In this document: positions 5,200-64,000 of the stretch, piece by piece
How positions within the stretch are numbered: position 1 is the first letter of the stretch
Layout: each line of letters opens with the position of its first letter
DNA from: Rhizophagus irregularis
Lineage: Eukaryota > Glomeromycota > Glomeromycetes > Glomerales > Glomeraceae
DNA: 64,000 nucleotides
Assembly: GCF_026210795.1 (NCBI RefSeq)
Contig: NC_089429.1
Span: 496,001 to 560,000 of the forward strand
Reading direction: 5' to 3'
Position numbers and translations under genes: made by a program
The notes under the pieces: model-generated
What the model saw: the letters and a program-made list of their open reading frames with translations, nothing else
Database searches by the model: none
Told to the model about the DNA's origin: nothing

Positions 5200-6001
5200 A
5201 ACGGTTAATAATCTGCATCGCAAATACCATATGATGTCTATAAAATATTTACTAAAGTCTAAAAATATACCATTATCAATTTATCATGGCAAGATTAGAA
5301 CCAATCATATATTGTCCATATAATATTAGGACATGGGTTGTTCACAAATTTGATTTGAGACCAAATCGAGGTCAAAATTTCAAAAGCACATTTATAACGA
5401 ATATTTTTTTTAGGTATCCCACGAGTACATCGTATAAAAGTCCATGTGATTACCCATCTGACATCTGCGGATTGACCAGAATCACCAGATCGTAACTCTT
5501 AACTATAAAAGACTCATTTTTAAAATTAATTTTTTTTTCACATTGATTATTCCTTTCTATTATATGATAGGTTAAGTGAAACATGATATATGACATGATT
5601 TCAAAGGAAGATTTACACAATTCAAGAAATTAATTTCTTTTTACAACGAGTTTGATTGTAAGAAATTTTAATCGATATCCCAAATCAGACCCGATAACCA
5701 TGTCCTGGAAGTATGGCCAGGACATAGTCACGTTTGGGCAACAGCCTACAGTATTTCTATTTCCTTGTTTTCCTAACGGAGAAATAAATAATCATGTGAC
5801 TTGACATCAATAATTAACCGTCAAGTAAATTTGGTTGACATGAAGGAATTGTACAACGAAGAAGTTTCGAATTTCACATGTAAATTCTTGTTTATCATTG
5901 TAACTAAATGTGGTTGATTATGTACTCAAACCGGTTATATAACATAATAAAGATAAAAAAGGGTTAATTTTTATCGACGGTTTCAATTTTTTTTTCTTAA
6001 G

Positions 6002-6029
<28 letters not shown>
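6002..6029. promoter_or_regulatory. Homopolymeric A tract in the proximal promoter
   Basis: An uninterrupted run of about 28 A residues ends roughly 30 bases before the ATG of the F-box gene. Poly(dA:dT) tracts commonly exclude nucleosomes in fungal promoters, so a promoter role is plausible but inferred. A+T runs are frequent throughout the window. Confidence 0.35.
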
Positions 6030-6033
<4 letters not shown>

Positions 6034-6058
6034 CCCTTCCCCTAAACTTGCTAAAACG

Positions 6059-8278
6059 ATGACATATATGAAATCATCTCTAGGAGATTTACCAGAAATA
6101 ATCAATGAAATTTTACAATATCTTCATGATGATTATTCAACATTATATTCTTGTATATTAGTAAATAGAATATGGTGTCGTTTATCTATTCCATTATTAT
6201 GGAGAGATCCATTTTCTATTTCTAAATATAAAAAACATTTGAATTATCATTTTATAGATTTTTATTTATATTATCTTAGTGAAGCTGATAAGAATATATT
6301 TAAAGAAGTATTTGAAATCAATAGAATTGATTTCATATCATCACCTTTATTTAATTATCCACATTTTATTAAATCATTGAGTACATATAAACTTGATTTA
6401 ATTGTATCTGATTGGATAGATTTATTTACTGAACAAACACCAAAATTGAATCGAAAGAAAGGAAATTCATTATATTGTAATTTACCACCACTTCAAAATA
6501 CTAGAAGGACAACACCACGACCACGTTTATGTGAAAGATCAGTAATATTACCATCTTGGATATCAAACGAATTTCCACCACTTCCATCAAGTATTAAAAA
6601 TAGTAGTGGAAATATTCGACAAGATTTTCAAAATAGAATACTTCCAATTCCAAGACGTGGGACATATCCTGTATTAACATATTCATTACCAACAAATTTT
6701 AAATATTTGAAAAGAGAGATAGTAACACCATCAGAAAAAATAAGGTTAAATGAACCACCACCATTAAATTTTTTACCAATACCAACATTACAACCACGAT
6801 CACGATCACGACGAATTTCACGACATCAACCTAATATTCATCGTCAATTAACAAGATTAGTAAAGGCTCAAGATGCGAAACTTGAAAAATCGAACAGATT
6901 AAAACGATTTGTTTGTTGTGCTCTGATTAAATTATTTATTTCAAATTCTGCAACATTAAATACTTTTGAAATAATTCTTCATCGTAAAAATGATAAGCAT
7001 GGGTTCGATTTCATGTATGATGTATATGAAATGATTAAAAATAATTCAAAATTTATTTCAGAAGTTGAAAATTTTACCTTTCATTATAGTTTACCACCTT
7101 ATCAAAGACAAAGTTTTACAATTACTGAATCGAAGAGAATGTCTATATTACCCTTAATTACTTTTTTACCATCATTATGTAACTTGATTAAAAATTTAAA
7201 AATTCAAGTAATACCAAATTTTAGTTTTGAAGCTTCAAAAAATTTATCAAAATTCATTGGTTCACAAAAACAACTTTCAAAACTTACCTTTACTTTCAAC
7301 AAAGAAGTTTTTCAAGATTCTTTATCAAACTTGAAAAGCGTTGCTCATACTTTAACATGTCTTATATTTGATTCATGTCATTTTACTAATATACAATCTT
7401 TTCAAGGTCTTGAATATCTTGAAAATTTGGAATCTTTACAATTCTTTCATTGTTATCCTGTATTGAAATTGGAAATTGTTCAACATTTATCAGAAATCAA
7501 GAATCTTAGAATTAAAACTTTAGCAATTGTTAATAATAATAATTATATTACACGTGGTAATTTATATATTGATATATTACAATATCAATTATTATTACAT
7601 AAAATTGGTAGTCATTTAGAAAATTTGATTTTATCAATAGATTTTGATATTAAAAAAGATATATTTCAAAGTATTTTACATTATTGTGAAAAAATTAAAT
7701 TTATTCATTTTACAAAATTAAATCATGATAATATTCCAGATTTAAATGATTTGATTTTAAATTTTAGTAATACTTTAAAATATCTTACCCTTGATATTGA
7801 TTGTATAAGAATAACTACTCCTTATATGGAAGATGATGATTCTAATGTTATTCAAAATATGAAAAAAACAAGTACCCTTTTATTACAACAACTTGGTCAA
7901 TTATTACCTCCTACTTTAGAATATATTGATTTATTTTTAATAATTGATCCTATTAATCTTGAAATTTTTTTAAATAATATTAAACATATTAAGAATTTAA
8001 AAAAATTATTACTTAGAAATTCAAGAGAATTTTATTTAGATGAAAATTTAAAATTATTAAAAGATTTTATTATTGAAATGTTTAGTATAAAATATTTTTC
8101 TTATAGAATTGGTAAAGGTGCTGATACTCTTGAATGGGATTTAGGTGGTAATAATTCAAAAGAAAAAGAAAAATCAAAAGAATTTGAATCTTTTGTTAAA
8201 GTTCGAAAATATTCTGAAGTAATGGTTAGAATGACTGAACCATTTTATAATGATTTTACTGCAAATTATGCATTGTGA
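6059..8278 (+). CDS. F-box protein with Pro/Arg-rich insert
   Basis: This is an intronless frame of 739 residues. The N-terminus (about residues 9-55) carries the F-box: DLPEIINEILQYL, then LYSCILVNRIWCRLSIPLLW. F-box proteins bind Skp1 and recruit substrates to SCF ubiquitin ligases. The C-terminal 450 residues are leucine/isoleucine-rich with repeated NL..L..F segments that suggest degenerate leucine-rich repeats, the usual substrate-binding part. Residues about 129-280 are different: basic and rich in proline, arginine and serine (for example RTTPRPR, PRSRSRRISRHQ). This block is absent from the paralogue at 49935-51566, where the corresponding flanks join directly. The ATG at 6059 is the first in frame and sits just before the F-box. 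The likely compartment is cytosol or nucleus, and the substrate is unknown. Confidence 0.85.
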   Translation: MTYMKSSLGDLPEIINEILQYLHDDYSTLYSCILVNRIWCRLSIPLLWRDPFSISKYKKHLNYHFIDFYLYYLSEADKNIFKEVFEINRIDFISSPLFNYPHFIKSLSTYKLDLIVSDWIDLFTEQTPKLNRKKGNSLYCNLPPLQNTRRTTPRPRLCERSVILPSWISNEFPPLPSSIKNSSGNIRQDFQNRILPIPRRGTYPVLTYSLPTNFKYLKREIVTPSEKIRLNEPPPLNFLPIPTLQPRSRSRRISRHQPNIHRQLTRLVKAQDAKLEKSNRLKRFVCCALIKLFISNSATLNTFEIILHRKNDKHGFDFMYDVYEMIKNNSKFISEVENFTFHYSLPPYQRQSFTITESKRMSILPLITFLPSLCNLIKNLKIQVIPNFSFEASKNLSKFIGSQKQLSKLTFTFNKEVFQDSLSNLKSVAHTLTCLIFDSCHFTNIQSFQGLEYLENLESLQFFHCYPVLKLEIVQHLSEIKNLRIKTLAIVNNNNYITRGNLYIDILQYQLLLHKIGSHLENLILSIDFDIKKDIFQSILHYCEKIKFIHFTKLNHDNIPDLNDLILNFSNTLKYLTLDIDCIRITTPYMEDDDSNVIQNMKKTSTLLLQQLGQLLPPTLEYIDLFLIIDPINLEIFLNNIKHIKNLKKLLLRNSREFYLDENLKLLKDFIIEMFSIKYFSYRIGKGADTLEWDLGGNNSKEKEKSKEFESFVKVRKYSEVMVRMTEPFYNDFTANYAL

Positions 8279-23243: not shown

Positions 23244-25640
23244 TAGGGATGGGGGTTAATTAACCACGGTTAATTAACCATGGTTAATTAACCGTTAATT
23301 TTGTTAGTTATGATTGATTTAAAATGGTTAATTAACCGTTATTTATAATTAGCCAATCAAAATGCAGAATTTAAATCATGTGATTAAATGATAATCCATT
23401 ATTTTGTTACACAATTAAATATTAATTAATATAAATATTGATTAAATCTATGATCTACATATTGCATGATCTTTTTTTTAAGATAAATTTTTTTTAAAAA
23501 AACACTTTTTTTTGCAAATTTATTGTTCATTATCATGGTAAAAAAAAAGGGAACTGTTTGGAAACATTGGACAATAATTACTGAAGCAGAAAGTAATGAA
23601 GAAAGTAGTAGGTCTAAGAAAAAAACACATCCTTCTGTACGTTGTAATTATTGTTCTAAAGTTTTTGAACAAGGTACAGCTAAAAGAATGCAAGTTCATC
23701 TTAATGATAGTTGTCCTAGAGCTCCAGAAAGTGCAAAAACAAAGAAACAACAAATTCCTGAACTATTAGAAACTTCTGATGCTACTACTTCTACTTTTAT
23801 TCCTACAGTAAAAACATCAAAAAAGCATTTAAAAAATACAACAATTGAGAATTTTGTTGATCGTATGAGTGAAGAAGAACAAGATACTCTTGAAATTTTA
23901 CTAGCTCAAGCATTATTTGCTGCTGGAGTTCCTTTTTCTTTTCTTGAAAATAATTATGTTATTCAGTTTTTTCAACAATTACGTCCAGCATTCAAATTAC
24001 CTAATCGAAGAAAACTTGCTGATGAATTACTTGATGATGTTTTTGATGAAGTTAAAGCTGAATGTAATGAACAAATTTTACAAGCTAAATCTCTTACAAT
24101 GGTTTCAGATGGTTGGTCTAATATTAATCGAGAATCAGTTCAAAATTTTGTTATTTGTACTCCAAAACCATTATTCTTTGATGCTATTTATTCTGGTGAA
24201 GAATCTCATACAGCTAAATGGGTTGCAGATGAAATTATTAAACAAATGGAAATTGTTGGTATTAATAAATTTTCAGCAGTTATTACAGATACAGCTAGTG
24301 TAATGAAAGCAGCTTGGCGAATTATTGAAGATAGTTATCCAAGTATTGTTTGTTTAGGATGTAATTCTCATGTAATGAATCTTTTAATTAGTGATATTTT
24401 AAAGATTGATCAAATTAAATCTGTTGTTGAAAATGCAAAAAAGTTGGTCAATTATTTTAAGGCACATGTACAGGCAACAGCTAAATTGAAACGTATTCAA
24501 AAAGAAAATTATTCTAAAGAAATTGCATTGGTTTTACCAGCACTTACAAGATGGGGAACACATCTTGCTTGTTTTCAATCACTTCAAAATTCAAGAACAG
24601 CACTTGAACAGGCTTTAATGGATATAAGAATTCGTCAAAATATGGATTTAACTTTAAGAGCTCATATTTTATCAGATGAGTTTTGGGAAGATTTAGATAT
24701 AATAACAAAAATTATGGAACCAATGGTTTCAGCATTAAAGTTATTTGAATCAGATATTTCAATTCTTTCAAATGTTTATTCATATTTCAAAGAAGTAATG
24801 AATCAAATTAATCAAATAGATTGTAATTTTTCTGATAAACTTCAAGAACTTATTGCAAAGCGATGGGAATATACTTATCATCCTATTATGATAACAGCTT
24901 ATATGTTAGATCCACAATTTTTGGAAAAAAGTAAAAATGATGAAGTTGAATCTATTGGTTATGTAGAATTTACAACATTTGTAAATAAAAGATTTAATCA
25001 GGAAGAAGCAGTAGAATTATTTGCTGAATTGGTAAATTTTCGTAATAAAAATTCACCTTATGATAATGAAATTATTTGGAAATCTGCTAATATTCTTAAT
25101 TCATCTTTATGGTGGCAATCATGGCCAACTAGTAAACTTCAACAACTGGCTATTAAAATTCTCTCAATTCCTACATCTTCTGCAGCTGCAGAAAGAAATT
25201 TTTCTACTTTTGGTTTTATTCATAATAAAATTCGAAATAGATTGAAAAATGAACGTGTTAAAAAATTAGTTTATATTTATGGAAATCTTCGAATGTGTAA
25301 TAGACTTGTAAAAATACAAAAAAAGAAACAGATTAGTAATTTTAATGAAAATGAAGAAGATAGTAATAATAGTTCTGATAATGAAAATAAAGAAGATGAT
25401 AATAATAATAGTTCTGATAATGATAGTATATTTGGATTTGAAGCAAATGTTATTAATTTAGATGATGAAGAATAAATAAAATATATTAAAATTTTATAAT
25501 ATTTAATAAATTATAAATTTATTTTAACTTCCTTAAAATTATATATACAGGTTATTTATGGGTTAATTAACCGTTAACTAACCGTTAATTAACCGGTTAA
25601 TTAACCAAATTCATAACTAACGGTTATTTTACCAACCCTA
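23244..25640 (+). mobile_element. Autonomous hAT transposon with palindromic end arrays
   Basis: The ends read TAGGGATGGGGG (left) and, in complement, TAGGGTTGG (right). They enclose an intact transposase gene. Both subterminal regions are packed with the 12-bp palindrome GGTTAATTAACC. There are at least four copies in 23252-23341 and four in 25558-25606, counting one-base variants. These are good candidates for transposase-binding sites. Flanking 8-bp sequences (GAGACAGT and AGCAGAGT) do not match cleanly, although AGCAGAG occurs on both sides, so the target duplication is unresolved. The copy is coding-competent and may be recent. Confidence 0.8.
23535..25475 (+). CDS. hAT-superfamily transposase
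   Basis: This is a single 646-residue exon. I start at the ATG at 23535, because the in-frame codon twelve bases upstream is TTG. It cuts and joins transposon ends. A BED-type zinc finger lies at residues 37-60 (C37, C40, H55, C60). The RNase H-like core follows, with candidate catalytic acids D192 in MVSDGWSN, D252 in ITDTASVM and E553 in AAAERNFST. The C-terminal hAT dimerisation region spans about 530-590 (WWQSWP, LSIPTSSAAAERNFSTF, KIRNRL). The tail is acidic and Asn/Ser-rich (NNSSDNENKEDDNNN). Length and domain order are normal for the family, and no frameshift or stop interrupts it. It acts in the nucleus, presumably on the GGTTAATTAACC arrays at both ends of its own element. Confidence 0.93.
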   Translation: MVKKKGTVWKHWTIITEAESNEESSRSKKKTHPSVRCNYCSKVFEQGTAKRMQVHLNDSCPRAPESAKTKKQQIPELLETSDATTSTFIPTVKTSKKHLKNTTIENFVDRMSEEEQDTLEILLAQALFAAGVPFSFLENNYVIQFFQQLRPAFKLPNRRKLADELLDDVFDEVKAECNEQILQAKSLTMVSDGWSNINRESVQNFVICTPKPLFFDAIYSGEESHTAKWVADEIIKQMEIVGINKFSAVITDTASVMKAAWRIIEDSYPSIVCLGCNSHVMNLLISDILKIDQIKSVVENAKKLVNYFKAHVQATAKLKRIQKENYSKEIALVLPALTRWGTHLACFQSLQNSRTALEQALMDIRIRQNMDLTLRAHILSDEFWEDLDIITKIMEPMVSALKLFESDISILSNVYSYFKEVMNQINQIDCNFSDKLQELIAKRWEYTYHPIMITAYMLDPQFLEKSKNDEVESIGYVEFTTFVNKRFNQEEAVELFAELVNFRNKNSPYDNEIIWKSANILNSSLWWQSWPTSKLQQLAIKILSIPTSSAAAERNFSTFGFIHNKIRNRLKNERVKKLVYIYGNLRMCNRLVKIQKKKQISNFNENEEDSNNSSDNENKEDDNNNSSDNDSIFGFEANVINLDDEE

Positions 25641-37838: not shown

Positions 37839-39368
37839 TTATGTAATATTCCATTTATGTAATATTTGTAAGTATTGGCGATAAATATTATAAAATTCAT
37901 CCGAAAACGTCCAGGTTAATGTAACTCCTATAAAATATTATAAAAAAAAATATTAAGTAAAAAAAAAGGAAACGGACTTTAAAATCAATATATGAATAAT
38001 TAATTATACATACTTCTTATAACTTGACCAAATTTTTGAATAGCGGAAGCAATACTCCATCTTCCTAATACGACAACAGAACCTTGTTTAATTCCCCAAT
38101 CGATAAATTTTTGACATTCCAATAAAGTTTGTTTTTCGGAAGGAATTTGAAATTGATGAACTTTTAGAAATTCTTCAACAGTAGAAGTGTCCCATATATT
38201 TGGACTATCAAGAAAAGCTTGCCAATCAGATTGAATAATATATTCATCAAGTTCATTTTTACTATCACCAATTATAGCAAGTAATTTTAAATTTGGAAAA
38301 TATGATTTCGTTAAACCTTCATACATAGTTTCACCAAATCCTATACAATCTTTAAATTTTAATTTTTGTAAATTTTTACATGCAGTAAGATTTTCCCAAG
38401 GTAATTCTTCACAACTCCTAAAATCTATTTTCCAAAAATGAATTGAACAAAGACTTTTCGATTGTGTTGATAATGAAGGAAAAATTGTATTAGGTATAAC
38501 ATTGGCAACTTTAAGGGATTTTAAACGAGTTTGAGTATTTACAAATTCTCGTAAAGATTCCAATTCTTCTGTATAATTTGGAGGTGAATCTTGAAGATAT
38601 ACGAATAATTTATCCTATAATAATAATAATAATACAAAAAAATTATCGGTTGAGGAAATGATCGACAAAAAAGGTCACGTGAACAAGAAATGAAAAAAGA
38701 ATCATAATCTCACCCCCTAAAAAACTTACCAAATTTTTACAAGAATCTTTTAATTCAGTTAAAACTCGATCTTTAACGAATTCACCTTGAATTTTTAATT
38801 TTCTAACCGGTTCTAATAAATTTTTAAATTCTCGTTCTATTAATCTTGTATATCTATAATCGGTTGCTTTTCGTGAAAGCCATTCACCGAGAACCAAATG
38901 TAATAATATAACGGATCTTGTAAGAAATAATTTAAATAATGCTCTTATCATTAAAGAGATTGAATTATAAGGAGCATTTTCTAAATAACCACACCAAACA
39001 TCAACGGATTGACAAAATCTGTCATAGTCTAATCTTTTCAACATAGAAGCATAATCAAAAGTAGGTCTTGCATAACTTTTTCTGTTTAACTCTAAACCTT
39101 CCTCTTCAAGATAAATATATTCTTCGTAACCAAAACATGAAATATAAGTATCAACTAATTTTGCATTTCCATTTTTAAAATAATAAAAAGGATTTCTCCA
39201 TAAAAGTGGTATAGCAGCTCTACACCATGAACGATTTACTAAAATACAAGAATGTAAATAACGTCTTATATCATAATCATCATTATTTGGATTTTTACTA
39301 GATTTACGAATAGATGTAAAAATGATTCTTAAAACGTCTAATGGCAATCTTGATGCGACCGATGACAT
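37839..39368 (-). CDS. F-box protein (three exons)
   Basis: Exons 38730-39368, 38014-38614 and 37839-37927 give 442 residues. Residues 8-62 form the F-box: LPLDVLRIIF, then YLHSCILVNRSWCRAAIPLLW. The first part of the protein ends near CKNLDKLFVYLQ, and the middle is leucine-rich with short repeats (SLKVANV, LCSIHFWKIDF, LQKLKFKDC), as in other F-box proteins of this type. Exon 2 could instead run to an in-frame stop at 38000-38002. I prefer a third exon because the donor GTATGT is strong, the acceptor is preceded by a T-rich tract and the added tail (RVTLTWTFSDEFYNIY) resembles the FYN ending of related proteins. The product is a predicted substrate receptor of an SCF ubiquitin ligase. Confidence 0.8.
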
Positions 39369-40856
39369 AATTTGATTGGATAATAAAGTTTGTTTATTAT
39401 TAAAGTAAAGGAAAAAAAATTTTGAGAAAGAGTTGTAAAAAAAATTTTTGAAATTTGCTCAAGTTGTATTTATAAGGGTATGAAAAATGTAAATCTAGTT
39501 TCGTGTAACAATACATAAATGGCGGTCAAGAATAATTGATTGGATAATTTGTAAAACATCATGGTCAGACAATTATCGATGATCAAAAATCATACAAGTC
39601 ACGTGAGTGTATTACGCAAACTTATATATAAAATTTCACAATTTACCCAACTTTGATTGAACAAATTAAAAATCAGGTTATTTAGGTTATTTTGACGATT
39701 TAAGCAATTTTATTATATCAAATTACAATTAAAAGGAACTAGAACAAAGAAAATCCAAGAAAAATTTATATATAAATAAATAAAAAATTTATATTTATAT
39801 ATATAAATATATTTTTTTTAAAAATCATTATAAAAAAAAAAATAATAATAATAATTTTCGAAAATTTATTAACTGCAGTATTATTAATTATTTTTAAATT
39901 ATTTTTTTATTTTTATTTTTATTTTATTTTTTATTTTTTATTTTGTCAAAATAAATTTTTTAATTTACTTTTCCTACATTTTTTTTTTTTTTAAACACAG
40001 CAATTATTATCGTTATATAGTTTTCGTTTTTTTTTTAATTTTTTTAACCGCATTTTTAAGAATTCACGTTGTACATTTGTACACGTGTACATTAACCGTT
40101 AAATTTAATTTTTTTATGCCTTATTTTGTTATTTTTTAAAGGAAAGCCATATAAAGAAAAAAATGAGGCTGTGCAAAAAATTTTTTTTTTATTTTGATAT
40201 TTTTTTTTTTATAAAAAAAACAATCCGCCTAATGATAAAAGAATCTAATTTTTTGATGAGGAAAATAAAAATGGGTGAGTAAATTTATTCTTTCTCAATT
40301 TAATTTTATCACATGATTATTCTATTCTTTTTTGTATAATTGTATTACCTATTTTCACTGAGTAATAATTTTTAACGATGCTTTATTTATTTATTATTAT
40401 TATTATTTTATTATTGTTATTATTATATTAATCAGAGATGCTAATCAAAAAAAGAAAAAAGCTAAGCGCGAAATAACAAAAAAAAAAATGTGGCGTAGCA
40501 TTTACTATTATATCATAACGGTAAATTTCACTTTAAAAAAATATCAAAGCCATTCTAATATTTACGATTACATTAAACTATGCCACAAAAGTAAATTATA
40601 GATATTTCCGTTTTGATAGATTCTCTATTATTGCCATTTTTCGTAACGTTTAAAATCGAAAGGACTTGATCATCATCGTGTTTTTTACCAAAACGAAGTT
40701 ACAATAGGATTACAATGATTAAACAAGTATTTTTTTTTTTTTTTTCTAACCGAATTAAATTTTTGAAAAAAAAAAAAAATTTCAAAAAAAAAAATTCTTT
40801 TCCCCTTTTCTTTTTGATTCTAATTAAAACCTTTTTACTTTTTTTTCTTTGAACAA
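39369..40856. other. Intergenic DNA between divergent genes
   Basis: A+T-rich with many homopolymer runs, including T and A tracts immediately before the ATG at 40857. It must contain the promoters of the F-box gene (leftward) and the cysteine-rich membrane-protein gene (rightward). No reading frame of note. Confidence 0.5.
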
Positions 40857-42427
40857 ATGTCAGAATCAAAAGATGAAGAAGATAATAATAATAAATCTAA
40901 CAAATTAGATACAAAAGATAATGAAGATTTTAAGAATTCACCGGTATCTGCATCAACGGTAACGCCACCACCAACGGTGTTAAAAAAATCATCATCAACA
41001 CCGTCTTCTGATAATTTCACAACAAGAGGTCAAATTTCTCCTACGCCAACACCATATTACACAGGCGAGTATTATACAGGTAATAATGATTATAAAATGA
41101 CGCCTCATATGAGAATAGATGACGATCGAAGAATTCCTATTGTGGATATTAGTGATGATGAAAAAGATGACCGTGAAGTAAAAATGAAGAATGGAAAAAG
41201 ATTTGGTCCTTTAATAATATGGGAAATAAATGCTTGGTGTAATTTTGTTATGTTATTTGGATGTGGGACTTTATTATTCTTTTATTTTAAGGTAAAAGTT
41301 TTTTGATCTTGATTGATTTGGTTGGTATTTTAATTTGTATGCGCTAATCGAAATATATCTGTCATTTAAGAGTTCAATACAAAGTGATTATGTACAATTT
41401 GCAAAAATAGTCATAATAATATTTCTTATAATAGAATTAATGGTTCGTATAATAAATTTATTACAAATGAATTATTATGATTATAATTTTGGTTTGGGGG
41501 ATTGTTTAGGAATTTTATTTAGTAAGTTATTAAATGGTTTTTTAATAATAATAATAATAATAATAATATATATATTTTTTAATTTACGTATTAATTATAT
41601 TTTTACATTATTTTACGTTAGTTAAGAAGGAATCTTATTTGATATTTAGTAACAAATGGATAGAATTATCACAAATAATTAGATTAGCAGATATAGCGGA
41701 TAATACATGTTTTATAATTCCAACATTATTCTTACTTCATATAATTTTATATTATTTAATACATAGAGAAGATCCCAAAGATACAAGTTATGATATTGAT
41801 AGTATTTGTAAATATATGGAAATAATTTTATCATTCCCTGCAATAATTTTAGTTATAACAAGAATTTGGTTTATTATTAAGACAATAGATTATGCAAAAA
41901 AAGTTGATGATGACGATGATGATTATCGTGATCGTAGTGATTGTTGTAATAATAATGGTAATTTTGATTGTGGAAGATGTGATTGTTATTGGTATGGATA
42001 TTCTGATCATGGTCATGGTGGAGATTCTTGTGGAGATTGTTGTGGAGCTTTTTGTGAATGTTGTGGAAATTGTTATGAAGCTACTTGTAATGCTTGTGGA
42101 AATTGTTGTGGAGCTTTTTGTGAATGTTGTGGAAATTGTTGTGAAGCTACTTGTAATGGTTGCAGAAATTGTTCCGAAGCATTTTGTGATGCTTGTGGAA
42201 ATTGTTGTGGAGCTTCTTGTGATGCTTGTGGAAATTGTTGTGGAGCTTTTTGTGATGCTTGTGGTCCTTTTTATGAAGTTTTAGGATCTATTTGTGGTCC
42301 TTTTTGTGAAGTTTTAGGTTCTTGTTGTGGAGGTTTTTGTGAAGTTTTAGGGTCTATTTGTGAAGCTGGTGGTTCTATTTTTGAAGTTTTAATAAGCATT
42401 TGTTGTTGTTGTTGTATTTGTGAATAG
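40857..42427 (+). CDS. Membrane protein with repetitive cysteine-rich tail
   Basis: Exons 40857-41291, 41371-41521 and 41622-42427 join in frame to 463 residues. Residues 1-116 are hydrophilic, rich in Ser, Thr, Pro, Asn and Asp. Four hydrophobic segments follow (about 118-143, 156-175, 225-242 and 260-281). After an acidic linker (DDDDDD, near 292) the last 165 residues contain 46 cysteines. They include seven or eight loose repeats of an 11-residue unit such as CGNCCGAFCDA, then GPFCEVLGS-type units, and end in CCCCCICE. I recognise no family. The tail resembles cysteine-rich membrane or metal-binding modules, but that is inference. The first acceptor (41370) is the least certain junction. 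The convergent neighbour at 42895-44273 also couples hydrophobic segments to a cysteine-rich end. Confidence 0.75.
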
Positions 42428-42894
42428 GGTGTGTTGTTGTGAATAATTTAATAATATTAAGCATTAGAATTTAAATTATTTTTAAATTGTTGTATAAACA
42501 GTAGACATGTTTTATTTTATTTATCAAGAAATATTATTTCGTTTTATAAATATTATTATTATACAAAATAAAACACATTTTTTTTAAAAACCCTTTCGTT
42601 TTATTTTATTTATTAAAAAAAAACAAGAAATATTATTATTATACAAAATAAATCCCTTTTTTTAAAAAACCCTTTCGTTTTATTTTATTTATTAATAAAA
42701 AAACAAGAAATATTATTATTATACAAAATAAATCACTTTTTTTTAAAAAAAAACCCTTTCCCTTCCCATTTCAACGTAAGACTCGGGAAAAATAATAACA
42801 TTAATAATAAAATAATAATAAAATAATAAAATAATAATAAAATAATAAATAGAAAATAATAATAAAAATAATTTTTTTTAAAAAAAAAAAAAAT
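42428..42894. other. Convergent 3' intergenic region with short tandem repeat
   Basis: Separates two convergent genes and contains the repeat at 42509-42775 and a run of AATAATAATA motifs (42800-42870). It probably holds both 3' UTRs. Confidence 0.5.
42509..42775. repeat. Tandem repeat of about 83 bp, nearly three units
   Basis: Units contain TTTATTTTATTTATTA, then ACAAGAAATATTATTATTAT, ACAAAATAAATC and TTTTTAAAAAACCCTTTC. The last two units are nearly identical and the first is more diverged. It lies in the 3' region shared by two convergent genes. Confidence 0.8.
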
Positions 42895-44273
42895 TTAATT
42901 AGAAGCAGCAGAATTAAAAGAAAAACAACAAAGAGCATTTAAACAGCCTGCAAGACAATAATTTAAACTATCTCTACAATTAGCACCCCATCCTCCACCA
43001 TTACAACAACTACAACAATAACATCCATCGCAACAACCTCCAAATAATGAAGATTTAGCAAAACCTCCCGAATTTTCATCTTGAGCATCTCGAGTATTAG
43101 TTGTTAATTGATTATTTTGTTCCATATTTATAACAGTTGCATCTTCTTGTTGTTGTTGAGTTTCTGTATAGGTTTGTGATGATGTATTATTATTATTTTC
43201 GTTGGTGGTATTAGAAGTTGTATTAGTAGTAGAAGTTGTAGTATAAGATTTTATATATGATTTGAATGAATCATTTTGAACTAATTATAGAAAAAAAAAA
43301 AAAAGTTAGTTAAAATTAGTTAAATTTTAAATTTAATTTTAAATTTAATTTTTAATTTAAAAAAAAAAAATTTTTTTTTTTTACCAAATATTATAATAAC
43401 CCTAAATATTAATGAAATTACGGTCAAACAAATAACAAAATATTTAATAGGCGTTATAAACCTGTATAAATATTTTGCTTCAAATGGATCCTAAAACATA
43501 TATAAAAGAAGAAGTATTAATAAAATGAATAATATTATTAACGATAAATATGATAAAATACGATAAATACGATAAATATGATAAAATAAAAAATTCATAC
43601 TAACCAAATAACAAATTAAAGATAATAAAATACTCCATATAATCAAATATCTCCATATTCTATCAATTTTACCTGATGGATAAATTGTAAATGGTCTAAA
43701 AAATATAATATTAAATTTAGGAAAGAAGAAATTTGGTTTTGGTTTAAATTTTATAAATTCTTTCTTTATTTCAGGAACTTTCATATATAATGGTTCATAA
43801 CTATATGGTTTTATATAAAGAGAAAGTTCATTTAATAAAGAATTATTTTGTGTTGATTGTGTTGATAATGATGATAAAGAAGAAGGTGAATAAATTGAAG
43901 GAGAAGGTAAAGATAATGAAATTGTTGAAGAATTTGATGATGATGAAAGTGAAGATAAAGGTGAAGATAAATTTTTATTAAAATTATTAAAATTTGATTG
44001 TTTTGATTGTTTTGAATCTTTTGAATCTTTTAAATCTTCAAATATATTAATAAAATAATCATTATTTTTCGTTGGATTAAAAGTATTAGAATTAATAATA
44101 TATGAAGGTTCAATAGAAGATGAATAATTTGTTAATTCCTTCTTCATTTTATTCGATTCCGAATTATATGAATTAATATCATCCTTATTCGTTTCCGACG
44201 AAAAATTATTTGAATAAGAAGAAATTATAGGTGGTGAATTATACATATACATAGATTGATATTGTCCTTTCAT
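42895..44273 (-). CDS. Membrane protein with cysteine-rich C-terminus
   Basis: Exons 43605-44273, 43385-43490 and 42895-43280 join in frame to 386 residues. The N-terminal 150 residues are Ser/Asn-rich and disordered (for example SSLSSSSNSSTISLSLPSPS). Two hydrophobic segments follow, one near the end of exon 1 (YLIIWSILLSLICYL) and one in exon 2 (YFVICLTVISLIFRVIIIF). A Thr/Asn/Gln-rich linker leads to a C-terminal block of about 50 residues with 12 cysteines (GGCCDGCYCCSCCNGGGW, then LCCFSF). I recognise no family. The layout (disordered start, LIIW-containing hydrophobic segment, cysteine-rich end) echoes the neighbouring gene at 40857-42427, with which it is convergent. A common origin is possible but not shown. 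Confidence 0.75.
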
Positions 44274-47969: not shown

Positions 47970-48175
47970 GTTATCACGAACTATAGCTGTGAGACTACGA
48001 TTCAGAATTACTAAACTTTACTGATCGTAAATAATGCTCTCTCACCCATTGCAAAGGGCTACAGACATTATCACGAACCATGGCATGGCTGTGAGACTAC
48101 GATTCAGAATTACTAAGCTTTACTGATCGTGTTATCAATTGCCATCACTGAATAATATAAATGATTCTCTTTCAC
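47970..48175. repeat. Tandem duplication in the F-box promoter region
   Basis: Two copies of about 85-105 bp are present, each running from TTATCACGAAC through GCTGTGAGACTACGATTCAG and AATTACTAA.CTTTACTGAT to a CTCTYTCACC end. The second copy ends about 40 bp before the ATG at 48216, so the upstream region of that gene has been duplicated. Confidence 0.8.
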
Positions 48176-48215
48176 CTTTTTCTATTTTAATAAATTCTTT
48201 CTTGACTATTACAAA

Positions 48216-49784
48216 ATGGCTACTGATTACTTTGAAGAAATTCTTGAATATTTAGATGAGAATGATAAAAATACTTTATATTCATGTTTATTGGTTAATC
48301 GTTTTTTATGTAAAGTTTCTGTCAAGTTTTTATGGAGAAATATTTGGAATTTCAAACTTCAATCGGAAGCACAAAGACAAATTATAAGAACTCTATTAAC
48401 TTGCCTACCTAATGAATCAAAAAAACTTTTACATAAGGAAGAAACTATTATTATTCCAATTTCAGAAACTTCAAAACCTCCATTATTTGATTATGTATCA
48501 TTTTTTAAAGCTTTTTCGATTGATGATTTTATTATAATGATTGAATTTTTTATTCAAAAATCAACAAAATCAACAAAATCAACACAATCAGCAAAATCAA
48601 CAAAATCAACAAAATCAGGGAGTTCAAAAAATCCAAATCATCTAATTAGATTAAACAAAAGTAGAAATTTATTAATAGAAGAGATATTAAAAATGTTTAT
48701 TAGCAGGACCTCTTTGAAGATATTAAATTATACTATGAATAAAAGAAAAATCATGAAAATTCCGTATGATATAATGTTAACAGAATTTCCTGGAGCGAGA
48801 GATTGTTTAAAGAATTTAATTGAATTGAGATGTATAAATGAAGTTCGACCAGAAGTTTTCTATCAATTATCTCAAGTCTGTCATAATATTGAAACAATCA
48901 AAATTTTTGGTTCTCTATCACATGATAATGGAATGAAAAAATTAATTATTTTACAAGATAATTTAAAATGTTTAGAAGTAAAAAAACTTCATAGTTCAGA
49001 ATTAAATGGGATTTTGTGTTCATTAAATAATAAGCAATTAAATACGATAACAAAATTACATTTAAAAGGAATTAATAATTTATCGTCAATTTCATTTATT
49101 ATTAAATTCACAAATTTGCAAGAATTTACTTTAATAAATTATTATGATTATAATAAGGTTAAATTGGAAGAATTAAATTATGTTATTTTTTCAAAATTAC
49201 GATATTTTGCAATCAGATATAATATTAAAAGTGAAGCATTATTGAAATTTCTAGAAAATAATGGAGAGAATTTAGAAGAATTTAAGCATTATTCATTTCG
49301 TACTTCAATAAATAAATCAATAAATTTAGCCGTAGCAAAATTTTGTTTGAATTTAAAATCATTATACGCTCGATTTGAGGAAACAAATACAGTAATATCA
49401 ATTTTAAATAGCTGTCAACAATTAGAAAGGATTTGTGTTTATTGTGTTTACTGGGAAGGAATTGATAGAATTGAAGAATTAACCGAAGTTGGTGTTTATT
49501 GCGATACTTTTAGAATTGAAGCATTAGAAATTATTAAAATTATTGCTAAATATTCACCAAAAAAATTTCATGAATTGAAATTACATGGAATAAATTTACT
49601 TCCGAAAGAATTGGAAACCATTTTTATGATTTGGGAAGATCGTATACCATGTAAAACACTTACTCTTATTATTAAAAGTGATGTAGTTAAAAAAGAGGAA
49701 AATATGAAAGTAATTGAAAAATATAAAAAGTTTGTGGATGTAAAATATGAAAAATATGAAAAATATAAGGAGATGGAGATGTAA
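48216..49784 (+). CDS. F-box protein with leucine-rich C-terminus
   Basis: Intronless, 522 residues. The F-box occupies residues 4-47 (YFEEILEYLDENDKNTLYSC, LLVNRFLCKVSVKFLW). A low-complexity stretch of KSTKST units (about 115-136) follows. The rest has repeated NL..L segments in degenerate leucine-rich repeats (for example LKCLEVKKLHSSELNGILCS, ITKLHLKGINNLSSI). The final residues are lysine/glutamate-rich (KYEKYEKYKEMEM). The predicted role is substrate recognition for an SCF ubiquitin ligase. The ATG at 48216 is the first in frame. The gene is convergent with the F-box gene at 49935, leaving only 150 bp between the two stop codons, so the 3' ends may overlap in transcripts. Confidence 0.88.
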   Translation: MATDYFEEILEYLDENDKNTLYSCLLVNRFLCKVSVKFLWRNIWNFKLQSEAQRQIIRTLLTCLPNESKKLLHKEETIIIPISETSKPPLFDYVSFFKAFSIDDFIIMIEFFIQKSTKSTKSTQSAKSTKSTKSGSSKNPNHLIRLNKSRNLLIEEILKMFISRTSLKILNYTMNKRKIMKIPYDIMLTEFPGARDCLKNLIELRCINEVRPEVFYQLSQVCHNIETIKIFGSLSHDNGMKKLIILQDNLKCLEVKKLHSSELNGILCSLNNKQLNTITKLHLKGINNLSSISFIIKFTNLQEFTLINYYDYNKVKLEELNYVIFSKLRYFAIRYNIKSEALLKFLENNGENLEEFKHYSFRTSINKSINLAVAKFCLNLKSLYARFEETNTVISILNSCQQLERICVYCVYWEGIDRIEELTEVGVYCDTFRIEALEIIKIIAKYSPKKFHELKLHGINLLPKELETIFMIWEDRIPCKTLTLIIKSDVVKKEENMKVIEKYKKFVDVKYEKYEKYKEMEM

Positions 49785-49934: not shown

Positions 49935-51566
49935 TTAAAAGCAATACATTTCGGCTATAAAAGTAACATATATATTTGGACTATAATAACTTTCTACTTT
50001 AATACCATATAATTCAAATTTTTTCACCTTGTTTTTTGATTCAAATAAATCTCTACCAATAAAATCATCTTTAAAAGCTAAATACTTAACCCTTTTCTTT
50101 TTCATAATATATTTTTCTATATAAGGTAAAATATCTTCACTTCCTATAGTTGTATAATCTCTAATTAATAATTTCTTAATAAAAGTATTTTGAGATTTTT
50201 TTAAGAATAATTCAAAATCACTTGGATTAATTTTAAGACATAATTTTAAATATTCTAATTTATTAGGTAAAATTTGACCCAATTCTCTTAATACTATAGA
50301 ACTAAGTTTAATCATTTCATTATCAATAGAAAGATAATTAAGATTTTCACCAATAATTTCAATTATATCAAAAGATAAAAATATACATTGTTCATTAAAA
50401 CCTAATAATTCAAAAAATTTAATATTTGTACAATATTTTATAATTAATTCAAGTAATTGTTGTTTTAATTCATCATTTGTAAAAAAACCAAATCCAATAT
50501 TTTCTAAATAATAACCAAATTTTTGTAATAATAATTGAAAAGATTCAATTTGAAATGATCTACTACTTAAAAATAATGATTTTAATTTAAATGGTTTATT
50601 ATTAATACTAATAATTTGTTGAATAAATTCATTATTTAAAGAAAAACAATAAAGAATATGAATAGATTCTAAAACATTTAATTGTTCAAATACTTCTTTT
50701 AATATATTTATATTTTTAAAATCAATATTATAAAATATAATTGTTTTTAAAGTATTTGAACAATTAGAATTTTTTAATGTTAATAATGAATTATGTAAAT
50801 GAAATTTATTTTGTTTAAATAAATAATTTCTTTGTACAAATGAAATCTTTTCAAGTTTTTTTTGTGTTTTAATTATATTTAATAATGGTTTTTCAATTGT
50901 TGAAATATCATGAATTTCATTAAATTCAAGATAAAGTGTTGAAATGGATTTACAATTATTTGATAAAACTGTTAAAAATTTAAAATATTGATTTGTAATA
51001 AGTTTTAAATTTTTTATTTCATTAATAAAATTGGGATTTTCTAAAATTATTTCAACACTATCATTAAAATATTTTATATCTGATACTTTAAAAGTATTTA
51101 AATTTGCTTTATTATCAATAAATGATTTAAATAATGATTTATAAATTAATTTCACTGATTCTGTGTAATATTTTTTGTTACAATTTATTGAAATCCATTG
51201 TTCAATAGAAAGTTGAATTTCTCTTAAATTTAAAATTTTAATAAAATTTGGATAATTAAATAATGTTTTATTATTATTGTTATTATTATTATTAGGATTA
51301 TTATTATTTATAGGAATTTTTATATTAATTCCATATTCATATAATTTTTTTTTATCTTCTTCATTTAAATACATTTCAATAAATTGATAATTTTTGGTTG
51401 GAATCGAAAATGGATTTTCCCATAATATTGGTATTGTTAAACGACACCATATTCTATTAATTAAAATACATGAATATAATGTTGAAAAATCATTTCTAAA
51501 ATATTGTATAATTTCATTTATTAATTCAGGTAAATCTCCTGAAAAAATTTTTGAGCATGTCGTCAT
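49935..51566 (-). CDS. F-box protein with leucine-rich C-terminus
   Basis: Intronless, 543 residues. The F-box lies at about residues 8-54 (GDLPELINEIIQYF, LYSCILINRIWCRLTIPILW). This N-terminus is closely similar to the gene at 6059-8278, as is the leucine-rich body. An Asn run (NNNNPNNNNNNNN, about 94-106) is a codon-repeat expansion. There is no proline/arginine insert as in the 6059 gene. The protein is predicted to recruit substrates to an SCF ubiquitin ligase. Because a T-rich stretch (51571-51598) precedes the ATG, transcription probably starts close by. The decayed fragment at 57810-57978 derives from a relative of this gene. Confidence 0.9.
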   Translation of the reverse strand: MTTCSKIFSGDLPELINEIIQYFRNDFSTLYSCILINRIWCRLTIPILWENPFSIPTKNYQFIEMYLNEEDKKKLYEYGINIKIPINNNNPNNNNNNNNKTLFNYPNFIKILNLREIQLSIEQWISINCNKKYYTESVKLIYKSLFKSFIDNKANLNTFKVSDIKYFNDSVEIILENPNFINEIKNLKLITNQYFKFLTVLSNNCKSISTLYLEFNEIHDISTIEKPLLNIIKTQKKLEKISFVQRNYLFKQNKFHLHNSLLTLKNSNCSNTLKTIIFYNIDFKNINILKEVFEQLNVLESIHILYCFSLNNEFIQQIISINNKPFKLKSLFLSSRSFQIESFQLLLQKFGYYLENIGFGFFTNDELKQQLLELIIKYCTNIKFFELLGFNEQCIFLSFDIIEIIGENLNYLSIDNEMIKLSSIVLRELGQILPNKLEYLKLCLKINPSDFELFLKKSQNTFIKKLLIRDYTTIGSEDILPYIEKYIMKKKRVKYLAFKDDFIGRDLFESKNKVKKFELYGIKVESYYSPNIYVTFIAEMYCF

Positions 51567-53119
51567 ATTCTTTAAAAAAAATTTTTTTTTTTTTTTGTTA
51601 TAAGAAAGGAAAAAAAGGGGGAAATTAAAAATAGGGATTTGTGGCTATTTTTTCAATATAAACTAAAACTAATTAGGGTGAATTTCGGACTTCAATTCCG
51701 ATAATAAAATAATATGCGGAGTATGCAGATCAATAGTAGATCATTCGGAAACTTTACCGGTAAATCATAAAGTTATTACGTTAACAGTTAAGGATTCAAA
51801 TAATTTTTTTTATGTTTTAAATTTTGTCATAATACGAGTTATACATACGAGTTACGTTCAAATTGTATTGGATTTGTATCAAATATATACGAATCCCGTA
51901 TAGGTCGTATTACGCTCATTACTGCTAGAACTGCTAGACCTACTGATTCAAATGGGCAAAAATAGCAAAATTCTTCGTCTTATAAACCAAATAAATAATA
52001 TCTCTTATAAACCTATTCATTATGTTAACGAAGTATTTTTTAATTGAAAATTTTAGTCATGTATAATCCCGGTAGCACTAAGTGTCACTCATGATCACCT
52101 TCATACTAATTTTAAAAATTGCGAGTGATTAGCTGAGTTTATAAATGACCGGGTATCTTCGTTAAAATAGTTAAAATAGTTAATATTTAATGAGTGACAC
52201 GCTCCAGGAGATTACCCATTTATTTCATGGGAACATCAGGGTTTTTTCCTTTCGGAAAAACCCTATTATTCCCAACTCCCCATGAAATAAATAATACTAA
52301 TATTTCACATTTAGTCAAAATCAGGTATAAAATGAAAATTAATACTAACCGCAGTGACTGAGGTATCTAGAATTGTGGCCGTGATAAAATTCAAAATAAA
52401 AATAAAATATTTAATAGTACTAACTAGAGTTTAGAGGTCTTAAAAAATATGGATATTTATCATTGGTATAATAAAATTACGTCAAATTCATCATTTAATC
52501 CAAATCAATTCGCGTAGTAATAACAACTCTTTCTTTTAATTTAAGTAAATATAATGGCAAATATTTATTTTATTTTATTAGAATTTGCTTGATAACATTC
52601 CTTGCTGATCACCGTTAACGAGTTTGATTAATAATGTCAGGTGATTTAGAAATTGAGTCCTAGTAGGTATGGTACGTTGAACTGAATTTGTAAAAAATTT
52701 CACAATTTTCTAAAATATCTTTTAAATTATATTTTATAATCAAACTACGGAGAGATATATTTTTTTCTTTTTTTTGCATTATTAATTACTATTGCTTTAT
52801 AATAAAAAATCTGAGTTGCTTTTGGTGATTATCATCTTTACAGTTTAAAATGAGATAAAAAAATCAAGTCTATTCTAACTCAATGTAAAAATTAATAATT
52901 TAAAGTATTTTTTTTATTTATTTAACATTATAAATCATTATTTGTACTGTACGTTCACGGATTTTGATCAGTTGCTATTGATGTGGTGTCATGTAGGTCA
53001 AAGTAGAATTGATGGTTACACAAATTATTACATATAACTTTGTTACCAACCAATAAATGGATATCTTTCTTTCTTTGCGCTAACGTTCAAATTCTATTTT
53101 TCTAACAATTATAATATTC
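51567..53119. other. Intergenic DNA with inverted repeats
   Basis: No gene. Inverted repeats at 52082-52200 and 52218-52292 are described separately. The right part (52560-53040) is A+T-rich. Confidence 0.5.
52082..52292. repeat. Two adjacent inverted repeats, one a strong hairpin
   Basis: GTGTCACTCAT at 52082 pairs with ATGAGTGACAC at 52190-52200. Immediately after, ATTTATTTCATGGG (52218-52231) pairs with CCCCATGAAATAAAT ending at 52292, and inside it AGGGTTTTTTCC pairs with GGAAAAACCCT around a TTTC loop. The second unit would fold into a long hairpin of about 75 bases. It could be a small palindromic element or a structured RNA. No evidence decides this. Confidence 0.6.
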
Positions 53120-55224
53120 ATAATAACTTTCATAAACAACACAAGTTTATTGAACAAGCAATTCTTGCTCATAATTCCCTTACAGAAGAAGAAAAAACCA
53201 AAGCAATAATATTAAATAGTAAAGATTATGACCGGGATAAAATTTGTTTTAATTCAGGAACAAGAAGAATTTGTGAAAATTGTGACCAAGAATGTTTAGC
53301 TACACTATATTGTGAATATTGTGTTCGAAATTATTTAAAAGTAAATTTTTCAAATTGGTCATCTGAAAATAACAGATAATGATATTGATAATTTGATAAA
53401 AAATTGTCAAATGGAAACACTTCACCCACAAACAATAGTTGAATGGATTCCTTATAATAATTTACGAAATGTTAAATATTTAACAAAAGGCGGATTCTCT
53501 GAAATTTATATAGCAACTTAGATTGGTGTAAGGTATAATGAATGAGATACTAAAAAACAACAATTAATAAGGTTTGGAAATCTACAAGTAATACTTAAAG
53601 AATTAGGAAGTGTTGAAAGTGCCAATCGAAATTGGTTTGAAGAGGTTTATAATTAAAATATTTAAAGATTTTATTTCAAATTTTCTATTAACAATAAATT
53701 ACATTATCTTTATAGGCTAAATCACACTTAACCATAAGTAATAAATACATAGCTATTGTTCAATGTGTTGGTTTAACACAAAATCCATCAAGTGGAAATT
53801 ATATGCTTGTAATGAGAAGGATGGATATAAATTTAAGAGAATATTTACAACAAAATCACGTTCAGTTTACAACTTTACATGGAAAGAAAGAATTCATATT
53901 ATTTATGAAATAATTCAAGCACTTGGTCTAATTCATAAAGAGAAATCGATTCATAGAGATTTGCATTCCGGAAATATATTATATTCACAGCTTAATGATA
54001 GTTGGCGTGTTAGTGATCTTGGATTCTGTGGTCCTGCAGATAAACCATCAACAAGTATATATGGAAATCTTCCTTACATAGCACCTGAAGTTATTAATGG
54101 AAGAGGATATACTTTTAAATCTTTTAAATCTGATATTTATAGTATTGCAATACTTATGTGGGAAATTTCATCTGGACAACTACCATTTATGAATTACAAG
54201 CATGATCACAATCTTGCAATTAATATCATTAACGGTATGAGACCGAAAATTCTACCAAATATTCCTTCGAAATATAAAAGTTTAATGGAACAATGTTGGG
54301 ATGCTAATCCATTAAAAAGACCTAATACTTATACACTTTTGAAAAAAATAAAAGAAATTAAGTCATATTATCAAAATAACCCAAATGAATTACTCAACAA
54401 AATGTAAAAATAGATAAAGAAGGAAATAATATAATGAGCCATAAATTATTTACAAGTAAAATTTATAGATTTGAAAACCTACCTGAGCCAAAAAATGCGA
54501 CAGAAGGTATAGTAATTATTAGTCATTTAACATTTTTTTTTAACATTACTAATAATATTTTATTTTCAATTAAATAATAACAGAACAAAAAAAAGGTAAT
54601 GTAATGAATGTTAATAATGTTTTAGTAAAAGGCCTTCAATTAATAAATATATTGAAATAATCTCCTTTTTTAAATAAGCATTTTATACTAGTAAATTATA
54701 TGATTTTAGTATTCCTGATAATAGTAAGTATTTATTAAATCACATTGAGTTTTATATAGTAAATATTAAAATAATTGATTTTTATTATAGTTAGTAATCT
54801 TGGCAAATCAAGTAAACGGTATACTTCAATTAATTATAAAGATAATAAAGGTAATTTATTTTTTATTAAAATTTTGTAATAAATATTAAATGCTAATTTC
54901 TGTCTTAATTTTAGATAATGATAAAGAATCTCCCAGATCATTTAAAAGGTTGAAATTAGAGAATGGTAAACCAAATGTTCAATAAATTTGTTTATAAAAC
55001 AACGTTATTGGAATAAGGATTAAATTTTATTTATTTAATAATAGTAGATCTTAAAAGTGAAAGAGAAATAACGCAACAACGATCAAATATTGATATTAAT
55101 GATAGGTAATATCCATTAAATTATTTATATTATAATTAATCTTATTATTCTAATTTATTTTATTTTTATAGATAATGTACATAATAATCCAAATCTTCGT
55201 TCAGAAAAGCAAGGTGAATTTTAA
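53120..55224 (+). pseudogene. Decayed protein kinase gene (TKL type)
   Basis: The sequence follows the kinase layout of the minus-strand gene at 62271-64000 but is broken repeatedly. Lesions: a frameshift near 53370, TAG at 53519-53521 and TGA at 53543-53545 replacing what appear to be Trp codons, a frameshift near 53860-53880, and another near 54394-54406. A 9-bp in-frame duplication (TTTAAATCT twice, 54113-54130) doubles FKS in the TFKSFKSDIYS region. Between lesions the kinase motifs are well preserved: HRDLHSGNIL, SDLGFCGPADK, APEV, MEQCWDANPLKRP. An N-terminal cysteine-rich segment (CENCDQECLATLYCEYC) lies at about 53270-53330. The small tail exons of the intact relative are also recognisable (54595-55224). 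No start codon was found. Confidence 0.85.
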
Positions 55225-62270: not shown

Positions 62271-64000
62271 TTAATATATTAACAAAGTAAACAAACCATC
62301 GAGGATTTCTGGTTTATCTTGTTCTGAATGAAGACTTGAATTATTCTGTACTTCATCTGTAAAATAGAATAAATTAGAATAATAATATTGATCATTATTA
62401 ATAAATAATTTATTTTACCTACCATTAGTACCAATATTTGATCGTTGTTGCATGAATTCTCTCTCATAGTCATTTTGAATATCTACTATTATCAATAAAT
62501 CAAATTTAGTGACATATTCATCCTTATCTTCAACAATGTTATAGGAAAATTAGAATCGATATATAAATGAATTTTTAAGGCTTTACCATTATCTATCTTC
62601 AATTTTTTGGATAATCTGGGTGATTCTTCACTATCATTATCTAAAATTAAGATATACAGTAAATTAGTATTTATTTATTTAAAACACTGATAGAAGAGTA
62701 AATTACCTTTAGAACTAATTGATGTATATTGATTACTTGATTTACCAAGATTACTAGCTATAATAAAACGAATCATTTAATATTTTGTCGTATAAAATTC
62801 AAATATAATCTTAATAAATACTTACAATTACTAGAAATACTAAAATCATATGATCTACTGATATAAAATGCTATTTTTTAAAAAAAGATTATCTCAACCT
62901 ATTTATTAATTAAAGGACTTATACTAAAATATTATTATCTTTATATTACCTTTTTGTTCTTCTATTATTATTTATAAAAAGAAGATATTATTAATAGTGA
63001 TTGAATATTAGGAAAAGATTAGATTAATAAATATAAAACAATTATTATACCTTCTGTTGCATTTTTTGGTTCAGGTAGGTTTTCAAATTTATGTATTTTA
63101 CTTGTAAATGATTTACTATTTATGTTAATTTTTTCTTTATCTACTTTTGTTATTAATTGAGGTAATTCATTTGGGTTATTTTGATAATATGTTTTAATTT
63201 CACTTATTTTATCAAAAAGTGTATCAGCATCAGGTCTTTTTAATGGGTTAGCATCCCAACATTGTTCCATTAAACTTTTATATTTTAAAGGAATTTCTGA
63301 TATAATTTTTGGTCTTATACCATCAATGATATTAATTGCAAGAATATAATCATGTTCATAATTCATAAATGGAGGTTGTCCAAATGAAATTTCCCACATA
63401 AGCATTGCAATACTATAAATATCAGATTTAAAGGTATAACCTTTTCCATTAATAACTTCAGGTGCTATGTAAGGAAGATTTCCATATATGCTTGTTGATG
63501 GTTTGTCTGCAGGACCACAAAATCCAAGATCACTAATTTTCCAATGATCATTAAACTGGGAATATAAAATATTTCCAGAATGCAAATCTCTATGAATTGA
63601 ATTTTCTTCATGAATATAATAAAGTGCATCAATTATTAAAAAAGTAATATTAATTCTTTCATTCCATGTAAGTTGATTATGATTTTGTTGTAAATATTCT
63701 TTTAAATTCAAATCATACTTTCTCATTACAAGTAAATAATTTCTATTTGATGGATTTTGTGTTAAACCAAAACATTGAACAACATTTGGGTATTTATTAC
63801 TTATAGTTAAGTGTGATTTAGCCTATAAAGATAAATTTCAAAATTTTACTATTAATAGAGAATTTTAAATGTAAGTTCTTTAAATATTTTAAATTTACAA
63901 ACCTCTTCAAACCAACTTTGACTTGCATTTGCAACATTTTTTAATTCTTTAAGTATTACTTTATGAGTTCCACGTCTTATTAATTGTTGCACTTTAGAAT
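62271..64000 (-). CDS. Protein kinase (TKL type), 5' end outside window
   Basis: Exons from right to left: 63903-64000 (partial), 63051-63822, 62950-62961, 62826-62870, 62707-62757, 62587-62640, 62423-62485 and 62271-62356. All introns are GT-AG and the frame stays open to the TAA at 62271-62273. The catalytic core is intact. VILKEL carries the ATP-anchoring lysine, HRDLHSGNIL holds the catalytic Asp, SDLGFCGP is the metal-binding motif with Leu for Phe, APEV closes the activation segment, and SDIYSIAMLMWEI and MEQCWDANPLKRP mark the C-lobe. It resembles the tyrosine-kinase-like kinases expanded in Glomeromycotina. The tail after the kinase is polar and encoded by five small exons of 12, 45, 51, 54 and 63 bp plus a terminal exon. 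The copy at 53120-55224 is its decayed paralogue on the other strand. Confidence 0.85.

Follow-up and report, generated by a model that had tools for sequence, protein, structure and literature searches.

Among the described systems closest to the locus reported here, fungal metallothioneins are small soluble proteins, and, to our knowledge, cysteine string proteins lack membrane-spanning segments and Sprouty, an animal protein, lacks multiple membrane segments. Sprouty and SPRED proteins possess a long Cys-rich domain that is S-acylated, and loss of S-acylation of the 26-Cys domain of Sprouty-2 accompanies loss of plasma-membrane localisation, a precedent for an S-acylated Cys-rich tail (PMC7657471). 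In the CYSTM family (PF12734), a Cys-rich tail is carried by a eukaryotic membrane protein, and two members from yeast are involved in manganese stress (PMC10217909).

Here, we describe two genes, A and B, of Rhizophagus irregularis, which lie side by side in the window, i.e., the whole 64,000-nucleotide stretch of contig NC_089429.1 that was analysed. Like fungal metallothioneins, the tail of A is dense in CC, CxC and CxxC, whereas it is joined to several hydrophobic segments, has aromatic residues at fixed places and matches no family; with 463 residues and four hydrophobic segments in A, and 386 residues and two segments in B, neither product is small and soluble. Like cysteine string proteins, A has a Cys run, CCCCCIC, in its hydrophobic C-terminal stretch, but A gives no J-domain match. 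Neither A nor B matches a Sprouty/SPRED-type family in Pfam. Both proteins differ from CYSTM members in being long, with further hydrophobic segments, and the Cys end of B is not hydrophobic enough to span a membrane (no 19-residue window above 1.4); residues 444–462 of A do exceed that value. Neither isolated tail matches any Pfam family, CYSTM included, up to E 10; the whole genome also gave 0 CYSTM matches, but so did 14 control genomes, so that this count is not proof of absence. PLAC8 (PF04749) has no match in A or B, and the one match in the genome lies elsewhere, on C14.

Gene A (40857–42427, plus strand) and gene B (44273–42895, minus strand) are convergent, their stop codons ending 467 bases apart. 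GT–AG introns were enumerated within hand-chosen ranges. For A, 42 intron combinations remain open (428 to 470 aa), one of which, encoding 463 aa, combines good sites at each of the four junctions (donors AAG/GTAAAA and TTA/GTAAGT, acceptors ATTTAAG and ACGTTAG), and for B, one of four open combinations (372 to 386 aa) has good sites throughout, encoding 386 aa. Exon 1 of A (40857–41291) is an open frame up to donor AAG/GTAAAA and encodes a disordered N-terminus and the first hydrophobic segment (LIIW...FFYFK), exon 2 (41371–41521) encodes the second segment, and exon 3 (41622–42427) encodes segments 3 and 4, an acidic linker (DDDDDD), the Cys-rich tail and the stop. On the minus strand, exon 1 of B (43605–44273) encodes a long Ser/Asn-rich N-terminus and the first hydrophobic segment, LIIWSILLSLICYL, exon 2 (43385–43490) the second segment, FVICLTVISLIFRVIIIF, and exon 3 (42895–43280) an Asn/Gln/Thr-rich linker, the Cys-rich end and the stop. 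Both three-exon models are free of internal stops and have introns of phases 0 and 1, and the first-pass annotation, which had described two convergent membrane-protein genes with Cys-rich C-termini, is confirmed. The gap between the two genes also holds a tandem repeat of 80 bases (42548–42749, 2.5 copies, 94% match).

Pfam was also searched with nine further long ORFs from the window, giving two F-box-like matches (sub-threshold), two kinase-domain ORFs, one hAT-type transposase and four without a match. The transposase is a 662-aa frame without internal stops (23487–25472, plus strand), in which a BED finger, DUF659 and a hAT dimerisation domain all exceed the Pfam cut-offs. An N-terminal theme resembling LYSCILVNRxWCRxxIPLLWRxPF was seen by eye in four of the ORFs (5957–8275, plus; 38646–39458, minus; 48165–49781, plus, where it is weaker; 49938–51644, minus), two of which are the sub-threshold F-box-like matches and two of which have none. 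The kinase-domain ORFs (53745–54404, plus; 63022–63822, minus) have a near-identical stretch, IHRDLHSGNILYSQ to GNLPYIAPEVING.

Codon bias favours the modelled frames of A and B, with weak spots at B exon 2 and the A tail. The log-odds table derives from eight further ORFs in the window, taken in their long open frames; four lack a Pfam match and one is the transposase. Of the six frames, the modelled one scores highest in A exon 1 (0.42 per codon, runner-up 0.21), A exon 2 (0.25, with a close runner-up at 0.21), the membrane part of A exon 3 (0.33, runner-up 0.04), B exon 1 (0.40, with a close runner-up at 0.35) and B exon 3 (0.465, with a close runner-up at 0.459), and every one of these runner-up frames has stops. 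In the A tail, the modelled frame scores 0.49 with zero stops and is continuous with segments 3 and 4 in the same exon; one minus frame scores higher, 0.67, but has six stops. For B exon 2, the score is neutral (0.002). In the introns, the top frame reaches 0.35 (B intron 2, 31 codons, with stops inside), and the A–B intergenic stretch reaches at most 0.09. Two open stretches in other frames over the Cys array of A (41852–42280, minus strand, 143 aa; 41889–42281, plus strand, 131 aa) arise because of its 33-base repeat.

The four hydrophobic segments of A peak at about residues 126–144, 158–176, 224–242 and 263–281, and the two of B lie at about 206–228 and 241–259. A further hydrophobic stretch at A residues 444–462 scores 2.09 in a 19-residue window when Cys, which supplies much of this value, is counted as hydrophobic; it was left out of the membrane-spanning count, and if it does span the membrane, the repeat preceding it stays on the same side. 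The tail of A (residues 301–463) contains 46 of the protein's 51 Cys within 163 residues, and B has 12 Cys at residues 341–377, within its last 46 residues, in agreement with the earlier counts of 46 in about 165 and 12 in about 50. Cys is encoded by TGT in 50 of the 51 cases in A. At this base composition, random codons are expected to give about 2% Cys; the corresponding binomial tails are about 1e-33 for 46/163 in A and about 6e-9 for 12/50 in B, the former overstating the case for the A repeat, whose copies are products of duplication.

The first-pass annotation had also pointed to an 11-residue repeat like CGNCCGAFCDA in A. It is borne out by ten consecutive 11-mers at residues 332–441 (42029–42358, plus strand), in unbroken register with zero indels, seven of the CGNCCGAFCDA type followed by three of the CGPFCEVLGSI type, and TRF gives independent support with 33-base arrays over the same region. 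In units 1–7, Cys is invariant at positions 1, 4 and 9 and occupies position 5 in five units, and Phe occupies position 8 in four. In units 8–10, position 1 is still Cys; positions 4, 8 and 9 are Phe, Leu and Gly, and position 5 is either Cys or Tyr. From unit 1 to unit 10, the Cys counts are 5, 3, 5, 4, 3, 4, 4, 1, 3 and 2, and the spacings in A comprise 13 CC, 13 CxxC and 4 CxC.

Such spacings, together with the 46 Cys of the tail and the invariant Cys at positions 1, 4 and 9 of units 1–7, are what membrane-tethered metallothionein-like tails might present, in which case cytosolic thiolate clusters would sense Zn, Cu or Cd at the membrane, or buffer them. However, bulky residues at fixed repeat positions are unusual for metallothioneins, and A has Phe at position 8 in units 1–7 (four of seven) and both Phe 4 and Leu 8 in units 8–10, where Cys is moreover replaced in register by Phe and Gly. 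No metal-binding family is matched in Pfam or NCBIfam, and the PDB matches of the repeat region, three MLL chains at E 0.34 to 0.85, are at chance level. We regard metal binding as possible but somewhat doubtful.

The same repeat might alternatively be a drifting 33-base coding minisatellite, with the Cys arrays as by-products of little specific function in fast-evolving orphan genes. The 33-base TRF arrays would be expected in that case, as would the lack of relatives in the genome, viral-contig and prokaryote searches; units 1–7 show no purifying signal either (mean pairwise dN 0.21, dS 0.23), a comparison that is uninformative with few sites and shared ancestry. This explanation is nevertheless unlikely, given that the frame is unbroken by indels across ten units, that Cys at positions 1, 4 and 9 is invariant in units 1–7, and that B has a Cys-rich end in which no 11-residue repeat can be seen by eye.

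Relatives were sought in the 146.7-Mb assembly (32 contigs) by a heuristic six-frame search, which may lose distant or low-complexity matches, using the membrane parts and tails as queries. The membrane part of A matches its own three exons only, and that of B its own place twice and one place on C9 at E 0.179. The B tail matches itself only; the A tail matches itself and two places, C5 (E 0.016) and C28 (E 0.99), which were rejected as lying in unrelated tandem repeats. At the sensitivity of this search, the membrane parts and tails of A and B thus look single-copy. Outside this genome, the membrane part of A gave one pattern match in viral contigs and its tail 96 in prokaryote genomes, none of which was confirmed, as expected of a fungal gene.

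That no family could be recognised for either protein, as noted earlier, holds across Pfam, where the hydrophobic regions and tails were also searched apart, NCBIfam and PDB sequences. In Pfam, nothing exceeds the curated cut-off for A or B, whole or in parts. Sub-cut-off matches of whole B to eight families (the best being PFF1_TM, E 1.2e-4; DUF4834, 0.0025; New_glue, 0.02) overlap its hydrophobic segments and were rejected, as were DUF5883, the sole one left with the isolated hydrophobic part of B (E 0.018), and ABHD16_N on A, whose E of 0.15 weakens to 2.7 with the isolated part. NCBIfam gives no match for A, the B membrane part or the B tail, and five matches to whole B, at E 0.082 upwards, were discarded as far below the cut-offs. 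No PDB sequence matches the A membrane part, whole B or the B tail. Structure prediction of the A tail, which had been suggested, was run as a single-sequence AlphaFold model of exon 3 alone and yielded no usable fold: the mean pLDDT is 45.8 for A exon 3 and 43.3 for B exon 3, too poor for a fold search, and the array of A is drawn largely as helix at pLDDT below 50 nearly throughout, which is not evidence for a helix. A literature search found no paper linking Rhizophagus with palmitoylation of cysteine-rich transmembrane proteins, and a search for Rhizophagus together with metallothionein and cysteine-rich genes found, among the matches listed, none on such genes by title.

The two proteins are of similar design, as the first-pass annotation had stated, both combining hydrophobic segments with a Cys-rich end. 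Its further suggestion of a diverged pair is not supported by alignment. In 3000 segment-wise shuffles per comparison, which keep membrane and non-membrane composition separate, Smith–Waterman alignment to B gives p 0.45 for A segments 1–2 and p 0.81 for A segments 3–4, and alignment of A segments 1–2 with A segments 3–4 gives p 1.00; the two tails give p 0.75 in 2000 shuffles. Plain blastp of A against B, without composition correction, reaches E 4e-4 with its top pieces tail against tail, while the hydrophobic parts reach E 2.1. The motif LIIW, which had been reported in one protein, is in fact present in both (A 119–122, B 210–213), each time in the first hydrophobic segment; any shared 4-mer in the first segments occurs in about 1.5% of shuffles, and LIIW was picked after the fact. 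The two genes also have a common intron layout, i.e., two introns of phases 0 and 1, the first between segments 1 and 2, although agreement in two phases can easily arise by chance. The shared LIIW and the equal intron phases are hints of common descent, set against alignments no better than shuffles.

The tails are probably cytosolic, because neither protein has an N-terminal hydrophobic signal and both have an even segment count (four in A, two in B), from which both ends of each protein are expected on the same side. A weak lean the same way comes from basic residues, counted in the 15 positions before the first segment and in the loop after it (6 vs. 2 in A, 3 vs. 2 in B). However, the later loops of A lend no support or point the opposite way: the third loop, placed outside, has three basic residues, vs. 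one at the ends of the second loop and two, along with seven acidic ones, in the first 15 residues after segment 4. These charges past the first segment of A leave the topology unfixed and so give some room to disulfide-rich extracytoplasmic domains, surface or luminal, as do dense Cys with small residues between them. With an N-terminus that is not signal-like, an even number of hydrophobic segments and a terminal CCCCCIC in A that would be odd in an oxidised domain, we consider such domains very unlikely. Of the metal-binding or disulfide-linked surface role proposed in the first-pass annotation, the metal half keeps its place and the disulfide half is the less likely. If the tails are cytosolic, disulfides would be unlikely, leaving acylation or metal.

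Between these two, we favour a multiply S-acylated, membrane-lying tail over tethered metal binding. We tentatively propose that both products, orphans in the searched libraries, are integral to the membrane and would have many S-acylated cysteines in their tails. The 11-residue repeats of A would fold into an 11/3 amphipathic helix with its Cys/Phe/Leu face pressed onto the membrane and fatty-acylated into it, and the terminal LISICCCCCIC may work as a cysteine string. In both A repeat blocks, hydrophobic and Cys residues fall together on one face of an 11/3 helix, and the helical harmonic (98 degrees) is the top of the five for an 11-residue period (0.272 vs. at most 0.104; 0.319 vs. at most 0.109). 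When columns are permuted, p is 0.013 and 0.024 with hydrophobic and Cys residues pooled and 0.015 and 0.004 on the Kyte–Doolittle scale, uncorrected for six tests. Columns 1, 4, 5 and 8 are mostly hydrophobic or Cys in both blocks, and a greasy face accounts better than a fixed set of ligands for position 4 being Cys in the first block and Phe in the second.

Other observations count against parts of the acylation reading. The helical moment of Cys alone is not significant (p 0.08 and 0.18), which speaks against the helix, and Gly at position 2 in nine of ten units and position 6 in four of ten, with Pro in units 8 and 9, argues against a stable helix, since both are poor helix formers. The CC, CxxC and CxC spacings suit metal binding as well. 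On the supporting side, the DHHC acyltransferase family (PF01529) has 10 matches above the Pfam cut-off at 8 places in the genome, several with internal stops as expected across introns, and none in the 14 control genomes.

On the acylation reading, A and B may act as membrane-domain or scaffold proteins with their disordered N-terminal arms in the cytosol. A bolder and rather improbable extension is that A belongs to a new multi-pass class of membrane protein in arbuscular mycorrhizal fungi, in which a genetically expandable 11-residue Cys repeat would be a tunable acylation comb clamping the membrane, and that B, of like design but built independently, would be its partner. If the A repeat is functional, each 11-codon copy would add three to five thiols (units 1–7), and copy number would offer a simple means of tuning membrane anchoring or metal capacity, the cysteines perhaps being fatty-acid anchor points or metal ligands at the inner face of the membrane.
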